Origin: Hyphomicrobiales bacterium
GTDB taxonomy: Bacteria > Pseudomonadota > Alphaproteobacteria > Rhizobiales > JAJFHB01
Direction: 5' to 3'
Assembly (NCBI GenBank): GCA_021775755.1
Contig: JAJFHE010000033.1
Location: 186,001 to 250,000 of the forward strand
DNA length: 64,000 nucleotides
The notes beneath the pieces were generated by a model. It was not told the DNA's origin, did no database searches, and saw nothing but the letters and a program-made list of their open reading frames with translations. The position numbers and the translations under genes were made by a program. Numbering within the stretch: position 1 is the first letter of the stretch; each line of letters begins with the position of its first letter. This document shows positions 28,547 through 31,500 of this stretch, piece by piece.

Positions 28547-31500
28547 ATGGAAATCATCGTCGGCATTTTGTTAATTATTGCCGCCATCTGGTTCGTGCGA
28601 TTCGTTTGGAGCCTCTTCGACCGCATCACCCTTGGCGCGGCAAAAGCCACATTGGATTTCTCCGACGCGCGCCTGCAAAAGATTTACACCATCGCCGCGC
28701 AACTCAGCGAATTCTCCGAAATCGCCGCCCACTCCGGCGAACTCGTCAAACATGAGCAATTCGGGCGCGGTGTCGCCCGCCTGAGCGCAGATGAGTTTTC
28801 CGTCGACGACCTCTTTGCCTATATCAGCGGCGACAATCACATGATTGGCTGTATGGCCATCGAAGCAGTGGCGCGCGCGCATGACAGCACCGATACGCGC
28901 GAACGCATGTTGCGTGCTCTGGCCGGGCTGTATGGCTGGCCATTCCAGCTCGCCATAAAGTATCTCGCGGAAAGCACACCGCCGAGCGACCCTCTCATCG
29001 GCCGCCTGCTCGTCGAAGCATCCGACCAGCTTTGGAACGACCAGACCAAGGCGCGGCTTGAAAGCCTTATCGAACGCCGTGTAGAGGGCGGTGAAGCACC
29101 GGCCTTCGGTGGCGCGCTGGTCCGGCTCGACAAGGACAACACGGACACGCTCCGGGAATTTCTCGCCGCCCTCAAATCCTTCGACACCACCGCCATGCGC
29201 GAAGAACTTGCATCGCGCTCCGTCACGGAAGGCAATAACGAGGTTGACGTGGAGTACCTGCGTTCCGTCGGTCAGGTGTGGAGTTCCCAACGTCAAAAGA
29301 CCGGTGGTGACCTCATTGCCCACGATGCGCTCACCGGCCTGCTTGAGCGGTCACAGGCCGCACTGCTTGCAACACCCGCCAAGTCGATTCTGATTATCGG
29401 TGATGCAGGGGTTGGAAAATCCGCAGCGATCACCAGCCTCGCCGAACGCATGGCGGGCAAGGGCTGGACGATTTTCGTCGCCGGTCACACCGAACTCATT
29501 GCCGGCCAGGTTTATCTCGGCGAGTTCGAAGGCCGCCTGCGGCGCGTTATCGAAACCCTGCAAAGCCATAACAAGGTGCTCTGGCATGTGCCGGGCTTTG
29601 AGGCTCTCGCGTTTTCCGGCCGCCATCGCTACAGCACGGTCAGCGCTCTCGATACGCTGTTGCCGCACATCGAAAGCGGCAGCCTTAGAATTGTCGCTGA
29701 ATTGTCGCGCGCCGCCTACGACCAGCTCATTCAGGCCAATCCGCGCATTTCAAGCATCTTTCAGATCGCCCGCATCGACGCCTTGGAAGCGGAGCCGGCG
29801 CGTGAAATCGCGGCCGGCTGGATCAAACGGTATGCGACGGCGACCGAACCGCAGACCGTCAATGAAGCGTGGCACCTTGCGCACCACTTCCTCGGCGAAA
29901 CGGCAGCGCCCGGCAACATCATGCGCCTCCTGCGCCTCACCCGGCAGCGTCTTGCACGCGGCAAATCGGGGGCGCGCAAGATTGCCATCACCAAGGAGGA
30001 TCTGTTCGACACGCTAATCGAGCTGACCGGGCTTTCCGCGGTTATGCTCGACGACAGTCTGGCGCTCGATCTTGACGGGCTGAAAAGCCACTTCCATAGC
30101 CACGTCATCGGCCAGGACGAGGCAGCTTCCTGTCTGGTTGAGCGTGTCGCCATGATAAAGGCGGGCGTCACCGACCCGACCCGGCCCGCGGGCGTCTTCC
30201 TGTTCGCCGGTCCCACGGGCACCGGCAAGACGGAGATTGCCAAAACGCTCGCCGAATGGCTCTTCGGCTCGCCCGATCGCATGATCCGCCTCGACATGTC
30301 GGAGCTGCAGACGGCCGAAAGCCTCGAACGGCTGACCGGTACGGAAGAATCGCAAAGCGGCGCCCTTACCGAGCGCATTCAGGAGCAGCCGTTCTCGGTG
30401 GTGCTGCTGGACGAATTCGAAAAAGCGCACCCGCGCATCTGGGATCTGTTCCTGCAAGTGTTCGACGATGGTCGCCTCACCGACCGGCGTGGACGGACAG
30501 CGGATTTCCGCCATGCCATCGTTATTCTCACCTCCAATCTGGGCGCCGCCATCCCGACCGATGCGCCGATCGGCTTTTCCGGCACAAAGGAGGCGTTCGA
30601 CCCGGCAACGGTTACCCGCGAGATCGAGAACGTCTTCCGCCGCGAGTTCATCAACCGGCTTGACCGTGTCGTCGTGTTCCGTCCCCTGAGCCGCGACGTC
30701 ATGCGCGACATTCTGCAAAAAGAACTCGATCTCGCCTTCAACCGCCGGGGCCTGCGCTCGCGGTCCTGGGCGGTTGAGTGGGATGAGGCGGCAATCGAAT
30801 TCCTGCTCGATCAGGGTTTCACGCCGGACCTCGGCGCACGGCCTCTCAAACGCGCCATAGACCGCCATCTCCTGGCGCCTCTGGCCCAGACCATCGTCAA
30901 CCGGCAGGTGCCCGAGGGCGACCAGTTCCTGTTCGTCACCCGTGGCGACAATGCACTCAAGGTGGATTTCGTCGACCCTGACGCCGCCCCGGCAACGGAC
31001 GAGGCGCCGGCGGTGAGCGAGACGGCCAAGGACACGCTGACGCCACGCTCGATCATTCTTGGCGGCGAGGGCAAGCGGGCGGAAATGACGGCGCTGCACA
31101 AGCGCTACGGAAAACTCGAAAAGGCCATTAGCAGCGATGCCTGGCACGCGGAAAAACAAGCCAACATGGCGCTTATGCAACTGCCGGATTTCTGGTCTTC
31201 GCCCGAGCGATTCGACATTCTGGGCGCGGTGGAAACGATCGACCGCATCGAAGCGGCGACAAGGCGCGCCGGCTCTTTGATGCGGCGCATCGCCGGCGGC
31301 GGGCGCCCGAAACGCGATGCCTACCCGGCCGATCTTGTAAGATCGCTTGCCCAGTCGTTGTTTCTCATCGAAACCGCCTGCGAAGACCTCACATCGAAAC
31401 GGCCGCGCGATGCCTACCTGCTGGTCGAGGCCGTGCGGCAGGGCGGTGCCGCAGGCGATGCAGAGGCATTTGCACGCCGCCTGTCGCAAATGTATCTGGA

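Follow-up and report, generated by a model that had tools for sequence, protein, structure and literature searches.

What could a two-ring Clp/Hsp100 ATPase do when one of its rings appears unable to hydrolyze ATP and the other has lost the aromatic loop of its pore? This question is raised by a gene of a Hyphomicrobiales bacterium at 28547..31912 of the + strand in a 64,000-nt stretch of DNA (the window, analyzed as a whole), which encodes a protein of 1121 aa. All coordinates given here are positions in this window, residue numbers refer to the 1121-aa ORF product, and every feature of the protein is encoded on the + strand. A first-pass annotation had described the AAA+ motifs encoded at 29390-30670, all of which we confirmed at their given place, but it omitted the retained pore-loop tyrosine of D1, an xGF tripeptide in D2 and a C-terminal domain homologous to the class-I release factor 2 (RF2) but without GGQ, the last being the part of the protein most informative for its function. 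Our literature search, which misses most subscription papers, brought up no description of a Clp ATPase-release factor fusion, and a survey of release-factor evolution (PMC6514570) nowhere mentions Clp proteins.

Gene and domain architecture

The gene was defined from its open reading frame, from Pfam and NCBIfam matches, and from an alignment of 36 orthologs from Alphaproteobacteria, Xanthomonadaceae/Lysobacter and one member of the Bacteroidota, with Xanthomonadaceae contributing 30 of the 36. Motif column counts are taken from this alignment (MAFFT). The sequence makes for a well-supported membrane-anchored architecture, in which a transmembrane (TM) helix is followed by a helical region, a degenerate D1, an active D2 and a GGQ-less RF2-like C-terminus. 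Pfam detects AAA_2 (5e-45), ClpB_D2-small (4e-16) and PCRF (1.5e-9). The top NCBIfam model is ClpB (TIGR03346, E 5e-94), matched chiefly through D2 and with a score of 316 bits (equivalog cut-off 1232); the ClpA model reaches 310 bits (equivalog cut-off 993) across aa 281-791, and the prfB model matches aa 849-1038. The ClpA model aligns D1 and D2 in a single stretch, whereas the ClpB model requires two. A full-length AlphaFold model was discarded at a pLDDT of 47.8.

The first-pass annotation had seen no Clp N-domain and a single TM helix in its place. To judge from its hydropathy and its conservation, the helix is real (aa 3-21, 28553..28609; Kyte-Doolittle 2.62), with a counterpart in every ortholog except that of the Bacteroidota and often with an Arg after it. 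The absence of Clp_N also held, as Pfam matched neither this nor any other family in the approximately 220 residues of the N region (aa 46-265, 28682..29341), where the alignment contains three near-invariant columns. The helix is not the entire N-terminus, however, because this stretch comes after it. The Bacteroidota ortholog begins at D1, lacking both the TM helix and the N region.

The surroundings of the gene differ between clades: in Lysobacter its neighbors are MutS and a peroxidase, and in Alphaproteobacteria they include pyruvate kinase and an amidase. No operon partner conserved across clades was found, and inference of function from the operon was rejected on these grounds. In the window the gene is flanked by a TPR-repeat protein recognized by Pfam (27143-27805, - strand) and by a 198-aa protein that matches no family (32067-32663, + strand), neither of which was recognized as a partner in other clades. 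Further out on either side, the translations of 24185-25036 (- strand) and 33729-34652 (+ strand) look to be of the N-formylglutamate amidohydrolase type. Membership of a defense system was rejected, as the PADLOC matches (DolB etc.) were confined to generic P-loop regions. A phage origin was likewise set aside, with no phage match and no relative confirmed in viral contigs, as was a plasmid origin, the sole plasmid match being a Thermus plasmid prfA.

The two AAA+ rings

D1 (aa 266-480, 29342..29986) was delimited by phmmer and the ortholog alignment and characterized by column counts and dN/dS. As first reported, it keeps its Walker A motif GDAGVGKS (aa 285-292, 29399..29422), whose Lys is present in 36/36, and has lost Walker B, where KVLWHVPGFEAL occupies the site (aa 343-354, 29573..29608) and the Asp column holds no Asp in any of the 36 (P 23, Q 12, S 1). 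The catalytic-Glu column is acidic in 31 of the 36 (D 23, E 8) and holds other residues in the remaining 5; most alphaproteobacterial members, the Hyphomicrobiales protein among them, and the Bacteroidota member have G, R or A there. The arginine-finger region, previously read as RISSIFQ, lies within PRISSIFQ (aa 399-406, 29741..29764), and its two finger columns contain Arg in 2/36 and 5/36, while the sensor-1 Thr is found in 2/36. These columns predict a D1 that binds ATP but is hydrolysis-dead. Its pore-1 loop, QVYLG (29507..29521), was aligned to ClpB KYRG by both phmmer and MAFFT, and at Y323, the position of ClpB KYRG and ClpA KYR, the residue is Tyr in 34 orthologs, Phe in one and His in one.

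D2, including D2-small (aa 481-800, 29987..30946), is the domain matched by AAA_2 and ClpB_D2-small. In the Hyphomicrobiales protein it contains Walker A GPTGTGKT (aa 555-562, 30209..30232), Walker B VVLLDEFEKAHP (aa 618-629, 30398..30433), TSN, the NR-finger (R704, 30656..30658) and GARP. All seven catalytic columns examined (Walker A Lys and Thr, Walker B Asp and Glu, sensor 1, Arg finger and sensor 2) are invariant at 36/36, which bears out the earlier description of Walker A, Walker B, sensor 1 and the arginine finger as kept. The reported deletion of the aromatic pore loop was also borne out. RLTGTEESQSGALTERIQ stands where GYVG would be expected, a phmmer alignment to ClpB chains of the PDB leaves a 5-residue gap exactly at this loop, and the shortened pore-1 loop GTEESQSGA (aa 598-606, 30338..30364) has no aromatic. 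The Gly-Tyr pair is deleted in 36/36, in each case with a replacement loop devoid of aromatics; of 81 other Clp D2 domains, 71 have the GYVG Tyr. The ortholog alignment had been proposed as the comparison that might overturn these readings, and in it the loss of the D1 Walker B and arginine fingers and the loss of the D2 pore loop are both conserved. Because they are conserved over 36 orthologs, these motif losses are not a matter of chance or an artefact of a single genome.

In ClpA, the tyrosines of D1 KYR and D2 GYVG both touch the substrate, and polypeptide contacts are more numerous in D1, with D2 acting as the principal motor (PMC9663308). On the strength of the column counts over 36 orthologs, we predict that the D1 of the present family is non-hydrolyzing, that D2 is the motor, and that the grip residue resides in D1. 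The earlier proposal that the protein is not a threading unfoldase is therefore accurate as to the lost D2 pore aromatic and overstated as a whole: with the D1 pore-loop Tyr kept in 34/36, one ring bears a standard gripping loop and may still support threading.

At the position of the ClpP-docking loop of ClpA, D2 carries an IGF tripeptide (aa 675-677, 30569..30577). The xGF pattern is found in 36/36, with P as its first residue in 30 (the Xanthomonadaceae) and I, L, M or V in 6. ClpA of the same genome has IGF at the loop position, ClpB of the same genome does not, and a ClpP gene was found in 5/5 genomes tested. An IGL/F motif sets ClpP partners apart from ClpB/Hsp104 (PMC5540906). Since the Xanthomonadaceae read PGF, docking to ClpP through this loop is a lead from the sequence and not a conclusion.

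The RF2-like C-terminal module

The C-terminal module (aa 846-1121, 31082..31909) comprises a helical domain 1, PCRF and the core of the codon superdomain, with the GGQ domain absent. PCRF itself is recognized by Pfam at aa 931-1039 (31337..31663; 38.4 bits against a gathering cut-off of 24). Comparison of the module with RF2 of the same genomes by hhalign gave a probability of 98.4% (E 7.6e-15) over 235 columns, whereas none of the controls (N region, D1, D2, module reversed) gave anything against RF2. The alignment covers domain 1 and PCRF, skips the GGQ domain and rejoins RF2 at the C-terminal element, where QIRSYVL..VKDLRTG...VLDGDID of RF2 pairs with RRYRESPSPLVRD..GWRTGR.DKVLGGDFD. This element, RRYRESPSPLVRD..GWRTGRIDKVLGGDFDLI (aa 1083-1120, 31793..31906), is the equivalent of the RF2 segment past the GGQ domain, and a second motif, GFGA..LL..E.GLHV.E (aa 1016-1033, 31592..31645), is the equivalent of RF2 AYGWLK.E.GVHRL. 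The conserved motifs of the module sit in the core of the release-factor superdomain and in the C-terminal RF element.

A fold was predicted for the module from an alignment of three sequences, taken from the window and related loci (pLDDT 67.9, pTM 0.64). Its top hits in Foldseek were all RF2 or RF1 (E 2.4e-6, probability 1.00), at a TM-score of 0.36 at best; the absent domain and altered domain angles could explain these low TM-scores. Taken together, the alignments identify the module as a homolog of the class-I release factor RF2 that lacks the GGQ domain. In each of five genomes, the GGQ family PF00472 matched RF1, RF2 and one or more additional GGQ proteins, but not this locus. Given that PF00472 misses the locus and that canonical RF1 and RF2 are retained in each of the five, the module is not the housekeeping release factor. 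An SPF or PxT stop-codon motif is likewise absent from the module, its place being taken by a loop, EREPAERSAK, that is not conserved. The pI of the module ranges from 5.4 to 9.7 among members.

Distribution, selection and origin

Genome searches found relatives at 57-60% identity in the Hyphomicrobiales genome's own family, at 52% in the rest of the order and at 43% in the class, and at least one Lysobacter and at least one Bacteroidota relative were among the matches listed. In the Lysobacter family, 31 of 249 genomes have a relative. Only 2 other genomes of 399 carry one in a sample of the phylum, as does 1 other of 385 in a sample of the class, and the Bacteroidota relative is alone in its family, the other 250 genomes being without one. 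In these samples the fusion of a Clp ATPase to an RF2-like module is rare elsewhere, and it may be spread more widely than the matches listed show.

Selection was estimated by the Nei-Gojobori method from nine Xanthomonadaceae pairs, of which L108/L109 was too close for an estimate. The ratio dN/dS was lowest in D2 (at most 0.09); it was 0.07-0.28 in D1, 0.07-0.34 in the RF-like module and 0.06-0.42 in the N region, and every domain of the family is under purifying selection. With values of this order, D1 is not a decaying relic. Two Xanthomonadaceae orthologs (L133 and G665:C2:73940-77251) contain one in-frame TAG, where recent gene loss is possible.

In a tree of D2 domains the family is monophyletic (support 0.997), and its sister clade (0.995) consists of tandemly encoded Hsp100-like proteins of Planctomycetales and Verrucomicrobia. 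GYVG is absent from D2 in both groups; as the sister clade also lacks it, the sequences suggest that the D2 pore loop was likely lost before the Clp-RF2-like family arose. Neighboring pairs or triplets of such long Hsp100-like proteins without a D2 GYVG were seen at L040:2-6129, L016:5874-15036 and L032:9110-16227, the hosts being Planctomycetales, Verrucomicrobia and an uncultured bacterium. The DD of the D1 Walker B is kept in some of these tandem proteins and not in others, as if they formed hetero-rings. The C-terminal extension in one group of three tandem Hsp100-like proteins has weak collinear similarity (77%); single-sequence comparison did not establish RF homology for the sister proteins, and PCRF was not among their listed Pfam matches.

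Discussion

The account we favor, although tentatively and at somewhat less than an even chance, is that of a membrane-anchored two-ring Clp/Hsp100 remodeller in which D1 is a static grip, D2 is the sole motor, and the RF2-like module docks to ribosomes or their products. In this model, a hexamer would sit at the inner membrane, with D1 holding ATP unhydrolyzed, steadying the ring and gripping a polypeptide via its tyrosines, and with D2 providing the force. The RF2-like module would dock on the ribosome, at the factor-binding site or the A site, without triggering peptide release, and near the membrane the motor could then act on a nascent chain or a stalled complex by pulling, remodeling or clearing it. 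We infer a ribosome-directed function in the face of several difficulties: the gene has no conserved operon partner, the Bacteroidota ortholog lacks the TM helix and N region, the loss of the stop-codon residues means that affinity for the A site could be weak, and the RF fold may bind another ligand. It is also mechanically awkward for pulling to combine a motor ring lacking an aromatic with a gripping ring that does not hydrolyze. The more specific proposition, that the GGQ-less RF finds stalled or membrane-engaged ribosomes so that the single ATP-driven ring of a tethered machine can extract or remodel them in a bacterial Hsp100 ribosome quality control, is possible but doubtful.

A different partner for the module is somewhat less probable still. 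Plant PrfB3, an RF2 relative that has lost SPF and GGQ, binds and protects petB mRNA (PMC5897788), and this precedent, the missing stop-codon tripeptide, the wide spread in module pI and a neighborhood with no link to translation would all be compatible with recruitment as a general RNA or protein binder off the ribosome, leaving the ATPase to remodel some other membrane-proximal complex. The placement of the conserved motifs in the core and C-terminal element of the release-factor fold speaks against this, and no specific alternative ligand suggests itself. We consider it unlikely that the protein is a ClpP-dependent degrader, that is, a membrane-tethered ClpA-like unfoldase docking ClpP through xGF and using the RF2-like module as an adaptor for ribosome-bound or nascent substrates. 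In its favor are an xGF in 36/36 at the ClpA/ClpX-type loop position, the IGF found there in the genome's own ClpA but not in its own ClpB, the separation of ClpP partners from ClpB/Hsp104 by the IGL/F motif (PMC5540906), the presence of ClpP in all five genomes tested and the retained D1 pore Tyr. However, the first loop residue is Pro in the 30 Xanthomonadaceae rather than the I/L/V usual for ClpP partners, and the GYVG tyrosine is gone from D2, which in ClpA is the main ring for translocation. A C-terminal module of approximately 300 residues also extends past D2, on the face that ClpP would occupy.

The alternatives without a motor or without a function carry less weight again. The first-pass annotation had offered an ATP-driven remodeller or a nucleotide-gated scaffold, and the former remains the best class. 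A scaffold or signaling hub that does not translocate polypeptide would accommodate a D2 without a pore aromatic in 36/36 and the predicted loss of D1 hydrolysis, but it is improbable because the D2 catalytic residues are complete in 36/36 and D2 has the lowest dN/dS, and it leaves the retained D1 pore tyrosine unaccounted for. That the protein is a decaying ClpB/ClpA paralog or an assembly artefact, as degenerate motifs and the in-frame TAG of two Xanthomonadaceae copies might suggest, is scarcely credible given an intact ORF, the same losses in 36 orthologs at identities down to approximately 40%, and dN/dS well under 1 in all domains.

If the RF2-like part of the favored remodeller still finds ribosomes, the family would represent an Hsp100 motor wired to translation, membrane-anchored in Pseudomonadota and with the same wiring but no anchor in at least one member of the Bacteroidota, and would connect AAA+ unfoldases with ribosome rescue in a way that can be tested. 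With its grip in a putative non-hydrolyzing ring and its motor in a grip-less one across 36 orthologs, it could serve as a natural separation-of-function Hsp100 that bears on the division of labor in two-ring motors.

Among known systems, ClpA/ClpC are similar in having D1 and D2 without the ClpB middle domain, a D1 pore Tyr, the D2 catalytic set and GF at the ClpP-loop position. They differ in that the 1121-aa protein has a TM anchor instead of Clp_N, has lost the D1 Walker B Asp and arginine fingers and, in all 36 orthologs, the D2 GYVG, ends in an RF2-like module and scores far below the curated Clp cut-offs. ClpB/Hsp104 supplies the highest-scoring NCBIfam model, mainly via D2; however, the middle domain, N-domain and GYVG are all missing and D1 is predicted to be inactive, so that the protein would not possess two active AAA+ modules. 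The module is collinear with RF2 (PrfB) in domain 1, PCRF, the codon-superdomain core and the C-terminal element, yet lacks the GGQ domain and SPF tripeptide and is joined to an AAA+ motor. In the chloroplasts of land plants, PrfB3 is likewise a relative of RF2 from which SPF and GGQ have been lost and which has acquired a new role (PMC5897788), although that protein binds mRNA and the same paper mentions no ATPase fusion. The tandem Hsp100-like proteins (L040, L016, L032) share the absence of GYVG and form the sister clade in the D2 tree, but are encoded as adjacent pairs or triplets and have a different N-terminus.
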